This document shows, piece after piece, positions 3,454 to 32,660 of a DNA stretch of 41,786 bases. The DNA lies in the IMG/VR virus record IMGVR_UViG_3300022818_000088, positions 1 through 41,786 of that record; one strand, written 5' to 3'. A program made the translations under genes and the position numbers. Source of the DNA: a virus. Within the stretch, counting starts at the first letter, position 1. Each line of letters begins with the position of its first letter. A model generated the notes under the pieces. The model saw nothing but the letters and a program-made list of their open reading frames with translations, ran no database searches and had not been told where the DNA came from.

Positions 3454-4152
3454 TCAGACTGTTCTAACGCCAGCCGCTTGGGCGGTTTGACGCATTTTTC
3501 TTTCCATGTACTCTAGCATTGAAGCGGTTTCTGAATCGAATGCCCGCTGCAAGGCGGGTTCCCCGTATTTGTACAGGGCTTCCTTCTTGTCATGTTTTGC
3601 GTCGGCAGAATTTGCGATCGTAGTTTTGGCTCGCCACACCTCACTTGCCGGGATGGCGTAACCTCTATCGGTTCCAAGCTGGACGGCGCTTCTGTCCTGT
3701 CGAGGTGCCCCGCGCATATCTGCCAATCCAACAAGCTTGCGAATCGCCGGGAGCCAGCCGGACTTTAGGAAAGCAATCGATCGCATACGGGCTGCCAACA
3801 TAGCATGAATAGCCTCTGTCATTGCCGCGCCATAGAGTCCTTCCCCTTTTCCTCGCCGCTTATTTATGATGAGCGCGGCCAGTGGCACCTGAACCTCTAG
3901 ACCAAAGCGCGAGAATCGTTTAACTGTTTTCAGTGACATTCCAACCGCCTGCCTTTTCTTTACAATGATTCTGCCGAGGTCTTGTTTAATGCTTGCCGCG
4001 GCTGCCTTTGGTGTTTCGAGTGCCGCACGGCGGGCAATGAAAAAGGCTTTCGTGTCGCAAATCTTCTTCGGGTCCCGCTTAGAGAAATCCTTGTAACGCC
4101 GCATTGTAGCGTCAAACTCAGTGGTGTTGATGCGGAAAGACAACGCACTCAT
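3454..4152 (-). CDS. Putative minor tail / head-tail protein (gpZ- or HK97 gp10-like)
   Basis: A 232-aa basic protein beginning MSALSFRINTTEFDATMRRY. I chose the ATG at 4152 because it overlaps the upstream stop (4149-4151) as ATGA; the longer reading from 4176 would extend inside the neighbour. Its position after the connector and before the terminator-like gene matches gpZ of lambda or gp10 of HK97, which complete the tail top. It is Lys/Arg-rich in the first 100 residues. Function is inferred from synteny. Confidence 0.5.
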   Translation of the reverse strand: MSALSFRINTTEFDATMRRYKDFSKRDPKKICDTKAFFIARRAALETPKAAAASIKQDLGRIIVKKRQAVGMSLKTVKRFSRFGLEVQVPLAALIINKRRGKGEGLYGAAMTEAIHAMLAARMRSIAFLKSGWLPAIRKLVGLADMRGAPRQDRSAVQLGTDRGYAIPASEVWRAKTTIANSADAKHDKKEALYKYGEPALQRAFDSETASMLEYMERKMRQTAQAAGVRTV

Positions 4153-4469
4153 ACACCCTGAGCTGGATCGTTGCACTCGAACCGCAAGAAAGCTTCCCCC
4201 GGCGTTTTCTCGATTGAATCAATCCGGTAGGTGTCCCCCAGGTAAATGATGCGGTTTTTAAGGGCTGGCCCCGGTGTCGGGAATACTGAGCATCTGGCCA
4301 CAAAGGATAAATCAGAATGCAGTTTGAAACCGCCCTCGGCCAGGTCCTTGCCGCGCTTGGCTGAAGAGGGGATAATCGGATACAACTTCCCGGCCCAGAT
4401 AATCGTTGCGCCAAGCGAGGATTCGAGGTCTAGCAGTCCCTCTTCCATCAAATCAGACACGTCGCTCAT
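4149..4469 (-). CDS. Putative head-tail connector protein (gpFII-like position)
   Basis: A 106-aa protein beginning MSDVSDLMEEGLLDLESSLG and ending in a beta-rich part (IIYLGDTYRIDSIEKTPGE). Small beta-sandwich connector proteins of about 100-120 aa occupy this position in lambda-like phages, and the central pattern of a compact strand-rich domain fits. It overlaps the glycosyltransferase gene upstream by 17 nt and the downstream gene by 4 nt (ATGA). Not proven by motif. Confidence 0.5.
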   Translation of the reverse strand: MSDVSDLMEEGLLDLESSLGATIIWAGKLYPIIPSSAKRGKDLAEGGFKLHSDLSFVARCSVFPTPGPALKNRIIYLGDTYRIDSIEKTPGEAFLRFECNDPAQGV

Positions 4470-5694: not shown

Positions 5695-7935
5695 TTATGT
5701 CTTGCCTACTTTCGGGTTGCTGCGCACCCAGACCGGCCCCAGGGTAAGCGCATTCGGATGCCTTTCCCGCACTGCCCGCATCACCGGCTCGTGCTGCGCG
5801 TCGTGTCCTGCCAGCCAACCATCCGGCTTTAGTTTCGGTTCCCAGGAAGCCAGGTCGCGCTTCACACTGTCGTAATCGTGGGCAGCATCCACAAAACAAA
5901 ATGCAAGCGAGTTGTCGGCCACACGACCGGCCATCTCCGCACTGTCCCCCTCGAGTACCTCAATCATATCCCCCACCCCGCACCGCTTCACGTTCGCCTC
6001 AAATGCCCCCCGGATACTTCCGCCGGCGGCAGCCACCGCGGTCACATGCGCGGGTTGATCCAACTCGCCCGTAAAACTGTCCACTGCATAAAGCTTCACC
6101 CGCTTGCCTTGAGCCTTAAGCATCTGGGCCAAGTGAATAATGCTGCGCCCGAACCAAACGCCAATCTCTGCCACCGTGTCCCCGTCCTTTAACGCGCCGG
6201 CCACGAATTCATAGAACTCCCAGAAGTTATAGAAGCCGGGGACGAAGGACCAGTCGTTTCCGGATTGCAGCCGGGTAAGGATAGCCTGCCCCTTGGCGTA
6301 TTGTTCCGGGGCATTCTGAGCCGTGTAGGTAGCGTCCAATTTCTTCCCGGTCTTGATAGGATGCTCGTGAGAAAACTTCAAGTCTCTCGCCTCAGTTACC
6401 ATGCCACGCTTGTAGGCTAACTCGGTAAACCAGTTGTCAGAGAAAACCCCTGTAAACTCAGGATGGAACAGGAAGTAATCAATTGCCCAATACGCCTTTG
6501 TGCAAATGGCCATGCACAACAGCGGATCGGTTCTGACCCCGTCGCTCACCGCCAAGACCTTGGGCTTTGTAACGTCGCCAATCCTTTCTAAGATGAGCTT
6601 ATCCCATTGCGGCATGGGCAGCCAATCGTCTGACAGTTGGACAATGACAGGAGCATCGGTTTTGAATGCGCCTTTGTTCCATGCGGCCACGCAACCGCCC
6701 CCGGTTGGAATGCAAAGGTGGTGCATTCTGCTCAGTGGTGCACTGGCCTTATCGTCTTGATCGAAAACAAAAACGTGTTCGATTTGGTCTGGCCTGTCGG
6801 CCATATCCAGCCAAATCTTTCTCGCCATTGCCGCTTGCTCATAACGCCCGCGTGTAGCGTGAATCAGGGAAATCTTTGGACCGCCCGCTTTCCTCATGCT
6901 TTCAATGCGCACCGACTCAGCCTCTTCCATCCGATTATTGGCTCGTAGGGCTTGGGCAAATATGTCTTCCCCGACCCACCCATAAACGGCCTCCCGACTG
7001 TTCCACGGTGTGAAGGAAGGCAACGGTGTCGCCCGCATTTGCCGGGCGTAGGCAAGGCCATCCTCGACTTGATTGGAATTCAGAGCATCATTGGCCAGCA
7101 GCAGCAGCGCCTCGCGCCGGGTCGGGTCGGCGGCGTAGGCAGCATGTAGCAGCGGCGTCTTTTGCTCCGGCTCGCTGGCGGTATGCTGCGCCAGGTTGAT
7201 GTAGATTTCGTACTTCTCAGGTCGCCCAATGTCTTTTGATCCCAACGCCTTTTTCGCCGCATTCACGCTTCCGGCAACGTCCTTTGCTAGCCCGAGTTCC
7301 TGGTGCAAGTGATACCACAGGCCGCAGGTCATTTCCTTTTCCGGGATGCTCCGCAGGATACGCAGGTTGCGCCCGTTGCTTTCCTGCTTCTTGAGATCGG
7401 GAAGGTGAGTCACCACCACACGATTGTCTTCGATTGCTTGGGGTGGTTTGATGTGGAAATCGAAACATTCATGCACCGGGAATAGCCACTTGCCGGAGCC
7501 GCGCAGTAGCATACGCTCGCGCGGAACCATGATGCCTTTGCCGAAAATGCGATAGGGAAACACGAAGGCAGCATATCCGCCCCGCTCCGCATGTTGTCGC
7601 ACGATCTCTGCACCACTTTCGAGTATGTCATCTGAATCGCACCAGAAACAATATTCGCCGTGGGCCAGATCAAAGCTTTTCTGCCGGGCGGAAGCGAAGC
7701 TGTCAATGTGCGGCCAGTCCTTATGGTAATTCAAGTATTCCCCTACAATGAGCGGCTTCCCATTTTCCTTGCACCACTTCTCTGCGATGGAAATGGTTTT
7801 GTCTGGCTTGTTCTTTCCAATCGCCCGGACCATCACTATCTCATCTCCGATTGCGGAAAAGGACTTGATACACCTTTCTATGTACTCTTCGACGTTTCCG
7901 ACAATCATGCACAGACTGATTTTTATCTCGCTCAT
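5695..7935 (-). CDS. Multidomain glycosyltransferase-glycosyltransferase-methyltransferase
   Basis: A 746-aa fusion. Residues 1 to about 220 form a GT2-like domain (SEIKISLCMIVGNVEEYIER; EYCFWCDSDDILESG with the DXD at about 100-102). Residues about 230-345 are helical and TPR-like (LLHAAYAADPTRREALLLLA). Residues about 355-540 form a second GT-like domain (KISLIHATRGRYEQAAMARK). Residues about 575-746 form a class I SAM methyltransferase of the Methyltransf_24 type (DTVAEIGVWFGRSI; SLAFCFVDAAHDYDSVK). The ATG at 7935 lies directly after a terminator-like stem and lacks an obvious Shine-Dalgarno; the extra 25 residues of the open frame above it cover that stem. It probably builds and methylates a short glycan on a virion or host surface component. 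Confidence 0.85.
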   Translation of the reverse strand: MSEIKISLCMIVGNVEEYIERCIKSFSAIGDEIVMVRAIGKNKPDKTISIAEKWCKENGKPLIVGEYLNYHKDWPHIDSFASARQKSFDLAHGEYCFWCDSDDILESGAEIVRQHAERGGYAAFVFPYRIFGKGIMVPRERMLLRGSGKWLFPVHECFDFHIKPPQAIEDNRVVVTHLPDLKKQESNGRNLRILRSIPEKEMTCGLWYHLHQELGLAKDVAGSVNAAKKALGSKDIGRPEKYEIYINLAQHTASEPEQKTPLLHAAYAADPTRREALLLLANDALNSNQVEDGLAYARQMRATPLPSFTPWNSREAVYGWVGEDIFAQALRANNRMEEAESVRIESMRKAGGPKISLIHATRGRYEQAAMARKIWLDMADRPDQIEHVFVFDQDDKASAPLSRMHHLCIPTGGGCVAAWNKGAFKTDAPVIVQLSDDWLPMPQWDKLILERIGDVTKPKVLAVSDGVRTDPLLCMAICTKAYWAIDYFLFHPEFTGVFSDNWFTELAYKRGMVTEARDLKFSHEHPIKTGKKLDATYTAQNAPEQYAKGQAILTRLQSGNDWSFVPGFYNFWEFYEFVAGALKDGDTVAEIGVWFGRSIIHLAQMLKAQGKRVKLYAVDSFTGELDQPAHVTAVAAAGGSIRGAFEANVKRCGVGDMIEVLEGDSAEMAGRVADNSLAFCFVDAAHDYDSVKRDLASWEPKLKPDGWLAGHDAQHEPVMRAVRERHPNALTLGPVWVRSNPKVGKT

Positions 7936-7971
7936 AAAACAAAAGGCTCGCCGCGATTGGAACGGCGAGCC
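7936..7971 (-). terminator. Intrinsic terminator-like hairpin upstream of the glycan cassette
   Basis: Perfect 9-bp arms (7945-7953 and 7963-7971) with a 9-nt loop. Read leftward, the stem is followed by TTTTGTTTT that ends at the ATG of the fusion glycosyltransferase. It would terminate or attenuate transcripts coming from the capsid genes, so the downstream cassette and tail genes must depend on read-through, antitermination or a local promoter. Confidence 0.75.
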
Positions 7972-8053
7972 ATACCCGGCCAAGTTAAAGAAAAGGGGCG
8001 GGCCAATCACTCCGCCCCATTGGTTAGATTGTGTTTATGGGAACACTTTGATT

Positions 8054-12537: not shown

Positions 12538-12543
12538 CGTTGA

Positions 12544-12577
12544 CAACCTGTAAAGGTTGCCGGGTTTTCTTTCTTTT
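12544..12577 (+). terminator. Short stem plus pyrimidine tract
   Basis: CAACCT (12544-12549), a GTAA loop and AGGTTG (12554-12559) form a 6-bp stem. After a CCGGG spacer comes TTTTCTTTCTTTT. It looks terminator-like on the + strand, but no rightward gene precedes it; it may block antisense transcripts or form part of the packaging region. Confidence 0.4.
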
Positions 12578-12600
12578 ACCGGCTTCGTGGGGCATGGGTT

Positions 12601-12631
12601 GCGGGCCGGACTTTCGCATGGTCCGGCCCGC
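12601..12631. repeat. 11-bp perfect stem-loop upstream of terminase
   Basis: GCGGGCCGGAC (12601-12611) and its reverse complement GTCCGGCCCGC (12621-12631) flank a 9-nt loop, ending 20 nt before the small terminase start. Possible cosB/TerS binding element, or an mRNA 5' structure restricting terminase expression. Confidence 0.75.
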
Positions 12632-12651
12632 TTTCGCTTTGACACCGGGGC

Positions 12652-13161
12652 ATGGGTGCAATGCGATTAGATTCAGATACCATCTCCGCAGACGATCTTG
12701 AGGCCCTTACCGGCCTGACAGACAGGCGCCACCGCCAGCTTGCAAAGGAGGGCTACTTCCCCCCGCCTGAGCGTAGTCAATACCAACTCACCGCCACGAT
12801 CCATGGCATGTTCAAGTACTACGCCGAGCAACTCCACAAAAAGGATGACAACCTTGCCAGCGAACGCAAGAAATACACGGTGGCCAGGCGAGAAAAGCTC
12901 GTGCTCGAGACTGAAATCTTGCGCCGACTGTACGTGCCACGTTCAGAGATTGCGCCCATCCTCCGAAACTTGGCCGCAAACCAGCGAGCCAGCCTGCAAA
13001 ACAAGCTCGAAAATGAGTTGTCGGTGAAGCTCTCCGGACTTGACCCCATCACGATCCGCGCGCGCATGGTGGAAGCAGTTGACGAAATATGTGACCTCTT
13101 CAGTGTCAGCACAAAAAAGTGGCTGGATGCTCCGCCCGAACCGCAACACTTGCGAGATTGA
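12652..13161 (+). CDS. Terminase small subunit, Nu1-like
   Basis: A 169-aa protein. Residues about 10-45 form a winged-helix/MerR-like DNA-binding motif (LEALTGLTDRRHRQLAKEGY then FPPPERSQYQL), typical of Nu1-type small terminases. The middle is a charged helix (NLASERKKYTVARREKLVLE) for oligomerisation, and the C-terminus contacts the large subunit (inference). It recognises the packaging site and hands DNA to the motor. Two in-frame starts exist (12652, 12661). It lies 3 nt upstream of the large subunit gene and diverges from the portal operon. Confidence 0.85.
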   Translation: MGAMRLDSDTISADDLEALTGLTDRRHRQLAKEGYFPPPERSQYQLTATIHGMFKYYAEQLHKKDDNLASERKKYTVARREKLVLETEILRRLYVPRSEIAPILRNLAANQRASLQNKLENELSVKLSGLDPITIRARMVEAVDEICDLFSVSTKKWLDAPPEPQHLRD

Positions 13162-18226: not shown

Positions 18227-18400
18227 ATTCAATCTACGTTTAATTGTTTTCTGTTACTGAGGAGAGAATACAGTAGCGTGTTGCGTGCTGCAAGGATTAT
18301 TTTGTCAGTACTTATACGGATGGATGGTTAGGTAGAAGTACGGAGTCAAGCGCGATGAATCTTTTCTTGCGTGTTGCTTGTAGCGTGTTAGAGTTTGCGC
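18227..18400. promoter_or_regulatory. Divergent early control region with repeated GTAGCGTGTT
   Basis: A 174-nt region between the leftward and rightward operons. GTAGCGTGTT occurs at 18273-18282 and 18380-18389, and GCGTGTTGC occurs at 18276-18284 and 18369-18377, giving two compound sites about 95 nt apart flanking the probable promoters. These look like operator sites for one regulator. No consensus sigma70 pair is certain. Confidence 0.6.
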
Positions 18401-18562
18401 ATGACAGAAAAACAATATGCAGCTTCGCTCAAGTCGGAAATGACCCGCATTGCGCTTATGCGCTCGCACGAAAGCCGGGTTGAAGGTGGGAAGAAATCCG
18501 CGCAGACCCGCAAGGAGAATGCGCTGTCCGGCAAATCAACTTTCCGAAGCGACAAGGCATAA
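18401..18562 (+). CDS. Small basic protein, first gene of early operon
   Basis: A 53-aa protein (MTEKQYAASLKSEMTRIALM at the start; ends RSDKA) of Lys/Arg/Ser-rich composition. Its position at the promoter-proximal end of the early operon is typical for phage host-takeover proteins (inference). No motif recognised. The open frame is compatible with an ATG at 18401 following the repeated operator region by 11 nt. Confidence 0.5.
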   Translation: MTEKQYAASLKSEMTRIALMRSHESRVEGGKKSAQTRKENALSGKSTFRSDKA

Positions 18563-18568
18563 CCTCTT

Positions 18569-18624
18569 GGCCCGGGGGTCGCGTTTGCCCGCGATGGTCT
18601 CATCTACTGCCCACGCCCCGGGCC
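18569..18624. repeat. Inverted repeat between first early genes
   Basis: GGCCCGGGG (18569-18577) and CCCCGGGCC (18616-18624) form 9-bp GC-rich arms around a 38-nt loop. The stem is followed by TTCGCTTTAT, a weak U tract. It may act as an early attenuator between the first gene and the rest of the operon. Confidence 0.5.
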
Positions 18625-18649: not shown

Positions 18650-18946
18650 ATGAGCATTGCAACATGTGAACAAAACCGGGCTCCGGAGTACATCCGGCGA
18701 ATTTACCCGGCCCAAACCATCGAGGAAACCATGGAGGTAATGAAGTTTGCGCGCGAAAAGCTCCAGAAATCGATCAGGGTCGAGGCCGAGTTGAGAGCGA
18801 CAATTGAAACCCAGCGGGCGGTGATCATAGTCGCGCTGGGCTACCTCCAGTCAGGCCTGGTGCCGCTGGCCGTCGCAACCCTGGTCGGCCAGACGCAGCA
18901 ACAGCAGGAGAATCCAGCCGCCATCGAGAAGGAGGTGGCACCATGA
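18650..18946 (+). CDS. Helical early protein, unknown
   Basis: A 98-aa protein beginning MSIATCEQNRAPEYIRRIYP. It has a long amphipathic helix (VMKFAREKLQKSIRVEAELR) and a Gln-rich C-terminus. A hydrophobic stretch (AVIIVALGYLQSGLVPLAVA, about 56-75) could be a membrane helix. Followed by an ATGA-coupled gene. Confidence 0.6.
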   Translation: MSIATCEQNRAPEYIRRIYPAQTIEETMEVMKFAREKLQKSIRVEAELRATIETQRAVIIVALGYLQSGLVPLAVATLVGQTQQQQENPAAIEKEVAP

Positions 18947-21640: not shown

Positions 21641-21855
21641 CCACCCTTGAAATGGCCCCACTCCTCGATCACCCCGACCCGAAGGTGCGGAAGCTGGCAT
21701 TGGAATATGCGATCCTGTGGGACTCCGCAACGGACCTATGCACCTCGATCGTCGCCGATGACTGGGACTGTGAAATCGGGCTCACTCCAACCTTCGACTG
21801 TTACGAAACGCTTCGCAAGGTTCTCGCCAGCCAGCCAAACGAAAAGAAATCATGA
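21637..21855 (+). CDS. Small acidic protein, unknown
   Basis: A 72-aa acidic helical protein beginning MTTLEMAPLLDHPDPKVRKL, possibly a short HEAT-like helix pair. ATGA overlaps join it to both neighbours. No domain recognised. Confidence 0.55.
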   Translation: MTTLEMAPLLDHPDPKVRKLALEYAILWDSATDLCTSIVADDWDCEIGLTPTFDCYETLRKVLASQPNEKKS

Positions 21856-22247
21856 AATCGCACAAACCCAAATGGATAGCGGCCATATCGCCATCGAAGC
21901 GGGCCAGCCGAGACGCCTACAACCGCGAGGCCCGGACGCTCGTTGCCGTGGCGCAGTCAATGCACTACTGCTGCCCCGTGATGAACTGGTTCGACGGGGT
22001 AGTTGTGCCCGTCGAATGCATCCACCACCTGCGAGGGAAAAACTGCGAGGCCCTGCGGCACGACAAGCGGGGTTGGTTTCTGGTCAGTCTCAGGGGGCAT
22101 GAGCTTATTACCTCGAACAGAGCACTGGCCCGAAAGCATGACTGGCTCTGTCCGCTTGGGAAATGGGGAACCCCGTTCAAGCCGGACGAACCGCCCATGC
22201 CCGGTAGCGTGGCCGATCTGGAAGCTCAAGGAATTCTGAAAATATAA
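21852..22247 (+). CDS. Putative HNH-like recombination nuclease
   Basis: A 131-aa protein with VECIHHLRGKNCEAL and then GWFLVSLRGHELITSNRALA, followed by HDWLCPLG. The paired HH, the later GH and the terminal H-D-W resemble small HNH nucleases of the Ref/DUF968 type found beside phage recombination genes. The zinc ligands are not certain, so the assignment is tentative. ATGA overlap upstream; the structured region follows. Confidence 0.45.
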   Translation: MKSHKPKWIAAISPSKRASRDAYNREARTLVAVAQSMHYCCPVMNWFDGVVVPVECIHHLRGKNCEALRHDKRGWFLVSLRGHELITSNRALARKHDWLCPLGKWGTPFKPDEPPMPGSVADLEAQGILKI

Positions 22248-22282
22248 CTTGCGCCCTCCATTGTGCGGGTGTAGTCTTCCAA

Positions 22283-22376
22283 TGTGAATGCTGATAGTCG
22301 AAATCTTACTTCCTTTGCCGGGGCAATTTCCCACCTGAAATTGTCAGCATTCACACGCGCCGGCAGAGGAAGTAAG
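22283..22376. repeat. Nested and crossing inverted repeats; candidate origin or RNA switch
   Basis: Three perfect or near-perfect inverted repeats in 94 nt. Arm pair 1 is 22283-22294 with 22344-22355 (12 bp, perfect). Pair 2 is 22305-22321 with 22360-22376 (17 bp, one mismatch). Pair 3 is a hairpin, CAATTTC (22324-22330) with GAAATTG (22337-22343), directly abutting pair 1. Pairs 1 and 2 cross, so they must be alternative or form a pseudoknot. It lies before a DNA-binding-like protein gene and a helicase gene. Confidence 0.85.
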
Positions 22377-22393
22377 GCTTCCTTATTCCCATT

Positions 22394-23137
22394 ATGATAA
22401 TCAACGCCGATATTTATACCTCAACACCTATGACCAAAAAACCAACAATCCCAACATCAACCACATTCAAGGACCTGCACGAACGCATTGAACGGCATTT
22501 TTCTTCCGTGGCCGAGTTGGCCGAGGATCTTCAGGAGATGAAATCCACCGAGCTTTGGAAGGTCGGAGGTTACTCATCTTGGGCGGATTACTGCGATCGT
22601 GGATTGGGCCGGAGTATCCGCAGAATTCAGCAGATTCTACGCACTAATCGGATCATTAAAAACGTGCTCGCAGAAATCGAAGAAAAGCCAGCGTCAAGTA
22701 TTCACCGCTCCGAGGACGACAAAGGGCATTTTGCTAAGGAATCCGAAGGCGGGACGCGAAGAACTTTCGCCCCCACCGATACTCATATTGTGGCCCTTGA
22801 GAGGGACGAATGGCTGCGGGAATCAGTGGCCAAACTGCCCCCGGAAAAGCGCGTCCCGGCAATCGAATCTGTGGCCGAAAAGGGAGAGCCTTTGACCGCC
22901 AAGAATGTCGCCAAGGCCGCTGAAGATATTTCCCCCAAGTCTAAACGCGAAATCGGCAAGCCCATTTACGCTATGTCGGTTTGGAAAGAACTCACCGACG
23001 CCATTGGTCGGGCCATAAATCGGGAAGGAGCCGTCAACGAACTGCTGTGCATCCCCGAGGACCACGAATACATTCGGACTTGCCTCAACAACGCTTTTAA
23101 CAGGGCCGAGTCCAGACACGAAAAGGCCAGAAAGTAA
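22394..23137 (+). CDS. Putative HTH/ParB-like DNA-binding protein
   Basis: A 247-aa protein. Residues about 50-85 (WKVGGYSSWADYCDRGLGRS, then IRRIQQILRTNRIIKNV) match a recurring W--Y-SW-DYC---G-S-RR-QQI pattern of plasmid and phage DNA-binding proteins. The remainder is charged and helical (KLPPEKRVPAIESVAEKGEP). Start may be 22394 or 22430; neither has a clear Shine-Dalgarno. It sits between the inverted-repeat cluster and the helicase, so it may bind that region in replication control (inference). Confidence 0.6.
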   Translation: MIINADIYTSTPMTKKPTIPTSTTFKDLHERIERHFSSVAELAEDLQEMKSTELWKVGGYSSWADYCDRGLGRSIRRIQQILRTNRIIKNVLAEIEEKPASSIHRSEDDKGHFAKESEGGTRRTFAPTDTHIVALERDEWLRESVAKLPPEKRVPAIESVAEKGEPLTAKNVAKAAEDISPKSKREIGKPIYAMSVWKELTDAIGRAINREGAVNELLCIPEDHEYIRTCLNNAFNRAESRHEKARK

Positions 23138-24669
23138 TGGAACTACCAGCTACACGTTGGCCACAACAGGTCCGAGCGTTCACCCAAACGATTGAGGCAA
23201 TCGAGCGCGGGGTGAAGCGCCTTTGCGTCACCAGCCCGACCGGAAGCGGAAAGTCGTTTTCGATGGTGGACATGATTAACTGGGCCGTAGAAAGCCGGAT
23301 GCCCGTCGCTCTCTACACCCAGCGCCGGATGCTCTATGAGCAAACGTGCGGGGTGTTGGACCGGGCCGGTATCGCATACGGAAAGAGGGCGGCGGGTCAT
23401 GACCTCGACAGGAACGAGGACGTTCAGATGTGCATGGTGCAGTCTGAAATATCGGCTGTTTACAAACGGGAGCACCGGCTACTTCATCACGCCAAGCTGG
23501 TGCTCGTGGATGAACTTCACCAGCAACAAGGCCCCACTTTTAGAAGGGTAGTGGACGACCATGTTGCCGCCGGAGCCGCTTGCGTCGGTTACACCGCAAC
23601 CCCGCTTGACCTTGAGGGAGTTGATGAACTGCTGATTGCCGGAACTATGAGCGAGTGCCTGCGGATAGGTGCCTTGGTGCCGCCGAGCACCTTTGGCCCC
23701 GATGAACCCGACCTGCGGCACATCAAGCGGTATGTCGTTGGACATGAAATTTCCGAGGCCGATAACACAAAGGCGATTATGCGCCCGGGAGTATTTGGAC
23801 GCGTGTTGGCCGCGTGGAAGGAGCACAACCCGGATGGTCTTCCAACGCTGCTGTTTGGTCCCGATGTCGCTGGATCGCTGTACTTCGCAGAACAATTCTG
23901 CAAGTCCGGAATTCGTGCGGCGCACATTGACGGTGAACAAATCTGGTGCGACGGCACGTATTACGATACCGAGCAGGGTGCCCGGGAGTGGATCGCTGAG
24001 CAATCCAAGAGTGGCGAGATCAAAGTCGTTTGCAATCGCTTTGTTTTGCGCGAAGGGATTGATTGGCCGTGGATTCAATGCGGTTCTTTTGCGACGGTAT
24101 TTGGTGCCTTGACCAGCTTTTTGCAGAGCGGTGGAAGGTTACTCCGGGCGCACCCAGGCAAGGACAAGTGCATCATTTTGGATCACGGCGGCAACTGGCA
24201 TCGTCACGGCTCGCTGGCGGTTGACCGGCACTGGAAACTTGGCCAGACCAATCATCGAGTAGTGGCAGAACGAGCAGAGAGGTTGCGAGAGAAGAAGGAA
24301 GACGAACCGATTACGTGTCCACAATGCGGCAAGGTGCGTGTCAATGGTGCCGTGTGCCCCGCCTGCGGCTTCCAGGCGCATCGCAGGGCAAGAATGGTCG
24401 TACAGGTGGATGGCACATTGCGCGAGGTCAAGGGAGACATCTATCGGCCTCGCACCACGAATCTGAAGCCGAACACTCAACAGATTTGGGACCGCACGTT
24501 TTGGCGAGCCAAGAGCAAAAAATGGAATGCCACATTCCGGCAAGCCGAGGCCATGTTCTTTCGGGAGAATTACTACTGGCCACCCAGGACGCTTAACAAC
24601 ATGCCAAAAAACCCAGGAGACTGGTTTTCTAAAGTGTCTCAAGTTCCAAAGGAATCATTAATCCAATAA
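23137..24669 (+). CDS. SF2 DEAD/DEAH-type helicase with zinc ribbon
   Basis: A 510-aa helicase. VTSPTGSGKSFS (about 31-42) is Walker A. LVLVDELHQQ (about 121-130) is the motif II region with DELH. GYTATP (about 151-156) is motif III. FLQSGGRLLRAH (about 328-339) is motif VI. Between PITCPQCGKV and CPACG (about 391-411) a four-Cys zinc ribbon follows the core. It unwinds DNA or RNA during replication or recombination. The ATG overlaps the upstream TAA by one base. Confidence 0.92.
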   Translation: MELPATRWPQQVRAFTQTIEAIERGVKRLCVTSPTGSGKSFSMVDMINWAVESRMPVALYTQRRMLYEQTCGVLDRAGIAYGKRAAGHDLDRNEDVQMCMVQSEISAVYKREHRLLHHAKLVLVDELHQQQGPTFRRVVDDHVAAGAACVGYTATPLDLEGVDELLIAGTMSECLRIGALVPPSTFGPDEPDLRHIKRYVVGHEISEADNTKAIMRPGVFGRVLAAWKEHNPDGLPTLLFGPDVAGSLYFAEQFCKSGIRAAHIDGEQIWCDGTYYDTEQGAREWIAEQSKSGEIKVVCNRFVLREGIDWPWIQCGSFATVFGALTSFLQSGGRLLRAHPGKDKCIILDHGGNWHRHGSLAVDRHWKLGQTNHRVVAERAERLREKKEDEPITCPQCGKVRVNGAVCPACGFQAHRRARMVVQVDGTLREVKGDIYRPRTTNLKPNTQQIWDRTFWRAKSKKWNATFRQAEAMFFRENYYWPPRTLNNMPKNPGDWFSKVSQVPKESLIQ

Positions 24670-24673
24670 CAAA

Positions 24674-24934
24674 ATGAACTATACTACTAGCGGAGACATG
24701 GAAATACGAATTGACGGAATAACAGCGCCCAACTTCGGTCCAGACCCCGACTTTGGTAACATCCTTCCACGCGAAGATGCGCCATGTTCAGTGTGCGGCT
24801 CGGCCTTGAGTTTGCCCTATGTGTGGATTGTCTTTGAGGGATACTTGGACGACTTCTTCGTGCATGATCATTGCGTTACGGTGTTGAAAACCAGACAAAA
24901 AACTCAGCACGAAAACGACTATCGAAATAATTAA
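24674..24934 (+). CDS. Cys/His microprotein
   Basis: An 86-aa acidic protein with CSVCGSALSLP (about 38-48) and VHDHCVTVLK (about 65-74), a CxxC-x(24)-HxxxC-type pattern suggesting zinc binding. Four nt after the helicase stop. Function unknown. Confidence 0.55.
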   Translation: MNYTTSGDMEIRIDGITAPNFGPDPDFGNILPREDAPCSVCGSALSLPYVWIVFEGYLDDFFVHDHCVTVLKTRQKTQHENDYRNN

Positions 24935-29441: not shown

Positions 29442-29485
29442 TTATTTACTTGCGCTCAATCGCTTTATGAGATAGATTTTCAACA

Positions 29486-29707
29486 ATGCGAACACATAAT
29501 ATTCCGCCGATTGATGGAACTCCTGAATGGTATCGAAGGACCTTCGTATTCATGGAGCCAATGGAAAACTTCCGCGAGGAGATGGTGGTTACCGCCTCAG
29601 GAATTCAAACCAGCACTTCTGGTCCGTGCAGCAGCCGCACGATGTCCAGATGCCTTGACTGGATTCACGAGAGCATCGCGTCTGTGAGAATGGAGCTTGG
29701 AATATGA
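29486..29707 (+). CDS. Small protein, unknown
   Basis: A 73-aa protein beginning MRTHNIPPIDGTPEWYRRTF. It follows the repeat array by 45 nt and is coupled to the replication-like gene by ATGA. Function unknown. Confidence 0.55.
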   Translation: MRTHNIPPIDGTPEWYRRTFVFMEPMENFREEMVVTASGIQTSTSGPCSSRTMSRCLDWIHESIASVRMELGI

Positions 29708-32586: not shown

Positions 32587-32588
32587 AA

Positions 32589-32616
32589 GCCGGTGGCGCC
32601 ACCAGACGCCACCGGC
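32589..32616. terminator. Bidirectional terminator between convergent operons
   Basis: GCCGGTGGCG (32589-32598) and CGCCACCGGC (32607-32616) form a 10-bp stem with an 8-nt loop, 2 nt after the PP-loop stop. On the minus strand it is followed by TTTTAG. It would end both early and late transcripts. Confidence 0.7.
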
Positions 32617-32660
32617 CCCCATGAAAAGGCTGCCGCATAAAGCCCCGGCAGCAAGGCAGA

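Follow-up and report, generated by a model that had tools for sequence, protein, structure and literature searches.

Two crossing stems were found by computation on the + strand at the most strongly folded spot of a viral genome, immediately upstream of an operon for an orphan protein and a helicase. The window, meaning the whole stretch of DNA analysed, is the entire IMG/VR record IMGVR_UViG_3300022818_000088 (41,786 bp), the completeness of which is not stated in the record. Our best explanation, to which we assign a probability of about 0.5, is that the element is a structured 5′ mRNA leader of about 110 nt for the orphan protein and the helicase, transcribed from a predicted promoter at 22249-22277, and that its crossing stems work as a switch.

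Crossing inverted repeats precede the helicase operon

The + strand carries the early genes of the phage between about 17.6 and 32.6 kb. Within this region, the 146-bp gap at 22248-22393, between the ORFs at 21852-22247 and 22394-23137, houses the crossing repeats. The features of the locus are as follows:

22283..22294, + strand: arm A, TGTGAATGCTGA, the P1 closing stem of fold A, where the transcript is predicted to start (direct reading, repeat search)
22305-22321 (22304..22321 with an extra pair), + strand: arm B, CTTACTTCCTTTGCCGG, the closing stem of fold B, which includes the UUUGCC hexaloop of fold A
22310..22323, + strand: P2 of fold A, UUCC[UUUGCC]GGGG (fold model)
22324-22330/22337-22343, + strand: 7-bp hairpin CAATTTC/GAAATTG with the 6-nt loop CCACCT, P3 of fold A
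22344..22355, + strand: arm A′, TCAGCATTCACA, complementary to A at 12 of 12 positions (direct reading, repeat search)
22360-22376 (22360..22377 with the extra pair), + strand: arm B′, CCGGCAGAGGAAGTAAG, forming 18 pairs with B, two of them G.U
22394..23137, + strand: orphan protein of 247 aa, helical, the first gene of the operon (family and structure searches)
23137..24669, + strand: SF2 helicase, ResIII/DEAD, phrog_16 (family searches)

The preliminary description of this DNA had reported two interleaved inverted repeats, one of 12 bp and one of 17 bp with one mismatch, and both were recovered by direct reading and by a repeat search. Read along the strand, A is followed by B, the hairpin, A′ and B′, a truly interleaved arrangement; the 7-bp hairpin, also present as described, begins 2 nt past B and lies flush with A′. 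The single mismatch between B and B′ sets T22315 against G22366, a combination that + strand RNA accommodates as a G.U wobble; an additional U.G at 22304/22377 brings B:B′ to 18 pairs, and GAA/TTC (22300-22302/22379-22381) lengthens the stem beyond one mismatch.

When the gap 22248-22393 was shuffled 12,000 times with its dinucleotides preserved, a perfect 12-bp repeat appeared in two shuffles, and neither a 17-bp repeat with one mismatch nor the two repeats together appeared in any. The B:B′ crossing duplex reached -31.1 kcal/mol, compared with a mean of -6.4 and a lowest value of -20.2 in 500 shuffles. These results confirm that the crossing repeats are real, beyond what dinucleotide shuffling yields. 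An exact search for the arm pattern found no other phage carrying the crossing arms.

Family searches verified the SF2 helicase gene downstream of the repeats, and the same gene block also has an Erf-type recombinase gene further upstream. The first gene of the operon had been called DNA-binding-like, a label that did not hold: searches of Pfam, PHROG and NCBIfam placed its protein in no family (E<=0.001 or above a cut-off), a PDB search gave no relative, and its AlphaFold model (pLDDT 44) was too poor for a structure search.

The fold signal favours + strand RNA over a DNA element

Among 2,780 segments of 100 nt covering both strands of the whole genome, the segment at 22291-22390 (+) ranked first in fold significance, with a z-score of -6.65 after refinement on the + strand and -3.74 on the - strand. 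The element itself gave a z-score of -6.3 when folded as RNA versus -4.2 when folded as DNA. We therefore favour + strand RNA as the functional form, because of the strand asymmetry of the fold z-score, the U.G at the B mismatch and an RNA z-score beyond the DNA z-score.

The same data bear on whether the repeats could instead be a DNA element, either a replication origin or a cruciform recognised by the 22394 protein. Such an element would suit the adjoining helicase, the Erf-type gene in the same block, the 12-bp and 17-bp inverted arms and a weak local turn of GC skew near 22.5 kb. However, the fold signal is far stronger for the + RNA strand, with the B mismatch being a + strand G.U; the arms begin at the predicted transcript start; an iteron search of 21800-24800 returned only two-copy chance-type repeats, so no iterons of an origin were seen; and the global skew minimum lies near 17 kb. 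We regard a DNA element as very unlikely, and the replication origin favoured by the preliminary description was not supported by the strand-skew check, the iteron search or the RNA-strand-specific fold stability. Its other suggestion, a genetic switch, remains plausible.

A predicted transcript begins at arm A

A promoter-like motif was identified directly upstream of the arms:

22249..22277, + strand: predicted promoter TTGCGC-17 nt-TAGTCT (motif), with the transcript start expected at about 22283-22285

The -10 box ends 5 nt ahead of arm A. Four matches to TTGCG-N17..19-TAGNNT were counted in the window, compared with 0.65 expected. At two sister promoter-like sites, 18367-18403 and 29450-29488, an ATG (18401 and 29486) lies 6-7 nt past the -10 box, which suggests that the genes there are leaderless early genes. 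Because the same distance was used here, the transcript is predicted to begin at about 22284, at the first bases of arm A. If this is right, a promoter motif tied to leaderless genes could be used for placing transcript starts in uncultivated phages. None of the promoters predicted at 22249, 18367 and 29450, nor that of the relative described below, was picked up by a generic sigma-70 scan, the consensus of which was stricter.

The predicted start also coincides with a possible reading frame:

22284..22397, + strand: possible 37-codon leader ORF, from a GTG at the predicted start to a TGA at 22397 overlapping the ATG at 22394 (marginal coding score)

If this leader were translated, translation would melt the stems and feed ribosomes to the next gene. 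The GTG at 22284 stands where the sister promoters put the start codon, and the ATGA overlap would fit such coupling. Against it, the coding score is -0.05 per codon versus 0.15 +/- 0.08 for the genes of this phage, GC3 is 0.41 versus 0.635, and 37 open codons arise by chance about once in five (a rough estimate from base composition). We consider a translated leader unlikely. No Shine-Dalgarno sequence was found at the usual distance before the 22394 AUG, and translational control is therefore hard to read from the sequence.

The second stem is predicted to replace the first during synthesis

We modelled the folding order as the energy minimum at each transcript length while the 3′ end grows, which is distinct from a kinetic simulation. 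A:A′, stretched to 16 bp with two G.U pairs, amounted to -24 kcal/mol and gave the best modelled fold for 3′ ends from about 22349 to 22367. From a 3′ end of 22370 onward B:B′ won in the model, down to -45.4 kcal/mol, and fold B lengthened the 22324..22343 hairpin to GGCAAUUUC[CCACCU]GAAAUUGUC. When A:A′ was forced, the best fold reached -34.9 versus -45.4 kcal/mol for the free one, so that B:B′ is better by about 10 kcal/mol. The constrained fold also revealed a third alternative:

22366..22384, + strand: B′:C hairpin GAGGAAGU/GCUUCCUU, ending 9 nt before the AUG

In this hairpin, predicted solely while A:A′ holds, B′ pairs with 22377-22384 just upstream of the AUG. The equilibrium model placed nearly all molecules in fold B, with P(A) about 5e-7, and a switch would therefore require a kinetic or ligand effect.

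The preliminary description had held that an RNA from this site must choose between two folds or form a pseudoknot. The two-fold choice gained support from the strand asymmetry, the promoter at arm A, the modelled order and the counterparts in the relative. For the full pseudoknot, the coarse rigid-body geometry test was so permissive that the control passed too, and it had no power.

As a leader with a crossing-stem switch, the RNA may act in the following way. A:A′ (up to 16 bp) would form at once on being transcribed, and in this state the UUUGCC hexaloop would be exposed in one near-optimal conformation, with B′ free to form B′:C near the AUG. Once B′ emerged, B:B′ (18 bp plus the stacked 9-bp hairpin) would displace A:A′ and bury the hexaloop, leaving the 17 nt ahead of the AUG mostly unpaired. 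Expression of the replication/recombination operon would then be set by any factor that stabilises or accelerates the first fold, be it a phage protein, ribosomes, RNase III or the speed of transcription. If true, this would be a compact natural RNA before a phage replication operon, with the choice between crossing helices depending on what is synthesised first rather than on a small molecule, and it would offer a well-defined system for studying co-transcriptional strand exchange.

In attenuator and riboswitch leaders the stems are mutually exclusive, and the order of transcription can decide the fold. The element is like them in having competing helices in an mRNA leader, but its alternatives cross as A-B-A′-B′ rather than overlapping in series, and a terminator U-tract is missing after both stems: the letters past A′ are CGCGCC and those past B′ are GCUUCCUUAUUCCC. 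The combination of GC-rich stem and U-tract that marks an intrinsic terminator or attenuator was thus not found, and the element is not among the + strand terminator-like sites of the genome.

A probable family of hexaloop elements in two phages

Viral contigs were searched with the helicase, the 22394 protein, the terminase and the protein of the relative, and one other phage was recovered; bacterial genomes yielded no relative, nor did phages at the DNA level. This sole relative (IMGVR_UViG_3300046690_000366, 55.6 kb) has a helicase 72% identical to ours, preceded by a gene for a weak homologue of the 22394 protein that shares the motif GKPxxA..W.E....G...NR. Helicase relatives in named phages were 25-29% identical and had a different layout. 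Three further elements were identified in the two phages:

18569..18624, + strand: a second, smaller copy (W1) with a 9-bp stem and P2 GUCGCG[UUUGCC]CGCGAU, between the stop codon at 18562 and the ATG at 18650
L002:4052-4115 and 4229-4296: paired hairpin elements of the relative, of the same size, upstream of its orphan homologue/helicase pair, whose arms, of 10 and 11 bp, are separated by 44-46 nt

The paired elements of the relative lie 113 nt apart and are paralogues, with an end-to-end alignment score of 44 where the best of 1000 shuffles reached 35. Their closing stems differ by one compensatory change of G-C to C-G and one change of G-C to G.U, which supports selection on the closing stem in the relative rather than directly on the element of the window. 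These paralogues provide the only covariation available; no sequence homologue of the crossing element was found, so arms A and B lie outside any covariation test. The 10-bp stem (GCCGGTGGCG/CGCCACCGGC) of a terminator-like hairpin at 32588-32617, at the end of the early genes of our phage, is one compensatory pair apart from the stem of L002:4052-4115. Another hairpin of the relative, at 3859, was dropped because it lies within an apparent gene.

The minimum free energy folds of W1 and both elements of the relative have the same parts, namely a closing stem, a hairpin set flush against it with six bases in its loop (UUUGCC, UUGCCU or CUUUGC), a second hairpin and a short single strand, and all four elements carry a UUUGCC-type hexaloop within a 9-12 bp stem. 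The crossing element does so in fold A only, with UUCC[UUUGCC]GGGG inside, in a conformation 1.3 kcal/mol above the best A fold and with its single-stranded joint on the opposite side of the junction from the other members. Apart from the two paralogues, the four have no alignable sequence. The crossing B:B′ stem is unique to the 22283 copy, the other three being without a comparable partner; arm B there contains the hexaloop, so fold B hides it.

A descriptor requiring a closing stem of 9 or more bp, 35-62 nt inside and a hairpin with a UUGCC/UUUGC hexaloop matched exactly four sites in the two genomes together (97 kb), all intergenic and on the sense strand. The background was 0.025 matches expected per genome pair in shuffles and one match in 1.30 Mb of other phage DNA, for a loop motif picked after the data had been seen and with two of the four members being paralogues. 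In 80 more helicase loci the descriptor matched once, which is chance level. When any shared loop 4-mer was allowed, four shared loops were reached in 6 of 300 shuffles (p about 0.02) and five in none; the real pair reaches five, one of these being an element included before and now read in antisense. Taken together, the four elements probably form a family of three-way-junction elements with a hexaloop, and if so an RNA element is common to two distant uncultivated phages.

None of the 4,227 Rfam families matched the window above its gathering score, and relaxed Rfam searches of the crossing element, W1 and the elements of the relative gave only sub-threshold chance hits, such as microRNA hairpins. 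A hammerhead core, considered for the GAAA stretch after arm A, was rejected: the stretch has neither a CUGAUGA box nor a stem II, and the Rfam ribozymes gave no match.

Complements of the hexaloops were seen upstream, GGCAAAT at 18530-18536 for W1 and AAGGCAA at L002:4035-4043 for L002:4052-4115, in both phages at the 3′ terminus of the preceding gene. As a lead only, these elements may commonly have a partner that pairs with the loop.

In the relative, the position before the helicase operon is conserved while the sequence is not, and a predicted promoter, TTGTGT-17-TATAAA, stops 3-4 nt short of the first hairpin. This arrangement would also fit plain mRNA processing or stability, in which a long 5′ hairpin is cut by RNase III or shields the 5′ end, and A:A′ is an accessory without switching. 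B:B′ and its stacked hairpin, with about 27 almost continuous pairs, would serve such a role, as would arms that begin at the predicted 5′ end in both phages. We consider this reading possible but not probable, as it leaves both the perfect 12-bp crossing competitor and the shared hexaloop unexplained. A broader proposal, which we regard as doubtful, is that the elements belong to a new phage RNA family with two copies per genome, built from a 9-12 bp closing stem that encloses two hairpins, one of them with the UUUGCC hexaloop. The copy at 22283 would have gained an 18-bp crossing stem that swallows the hexaloop after transcription passes, so that the RNA would time the replication operon co-transcriptionally and in one direction only.

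Comparison with known phage leader RNAs

The leader of T4 gene 32 is a structured operator whose sequence diverges among relatives while the structure stays (PMC535899). Like it, the element would be a structured 5′ leader in front of a replication/recombination gene, and in both the structure gives way to a less folded stretch before the start codon. In T4, gp32, the encoded ssDNA-binding protein, represses its own synthesis by binding a pseudoknot of about 28 nt, beyond which come UUAAA repeats; the present element, in contrast, has stems of 12 and 18 bp, lacks UUAAA repeats and precedes a gene for an orphan protein. Crossing stems are present here, and may or may not pair simultaneously as a pseudoknot of the gene 32 type.

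The putL and putR sites of HK022, of about 70 nt each, make two copies per phage, of which one is immediately at the promoter and the other lies downstream of it (PMC9378689). By analogy, a compact RNA that stays on RNA polymerase could allow readthrough of early-operon terminators. The elements are similar in size (56-73 nt), and their placement recalls putL/putR of HK022 (PMC9378689): each phage has a pair of them close to early promoters. One lies at the transcript start, the other about 170 nt past another predicted start. However, put consists of two adjacent, side-by-side stem-loops without a closing stem, whereas W1 and both elements of the relative have two hairpins within a 9-11 bp stem; one copy in the relative follows a stop codon and precedes the next promoter, and no sequence likeness was seen. 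We find put-like antitermination, which would act through the zinc-binding domain of the RNA polymerase beta′ subunit, doubtful.

The element may serve as a translation switch, in mRNA processing or in put-like antitermination, and a switch mechanism best accounts for its anatomy, with roughly even odds against simpler mRNA processing, antitermination and other roles. By analogy, the element resembles the T4 gene 32 leader in function and HK022 put in copy number and placement; we filed it under neither, and phage structured leader RNA is its best label.

Two other features of the window were observed. The 771-aa protein encoded at 5698-8010 (-), among structural genes, fuses family 2 glycosyltransferase and methyltransferase domains. 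The gap at 12541-12700, between opposing structural and terminase genes, shows a strong fold on the - strand, with a z-score of about -4.4.
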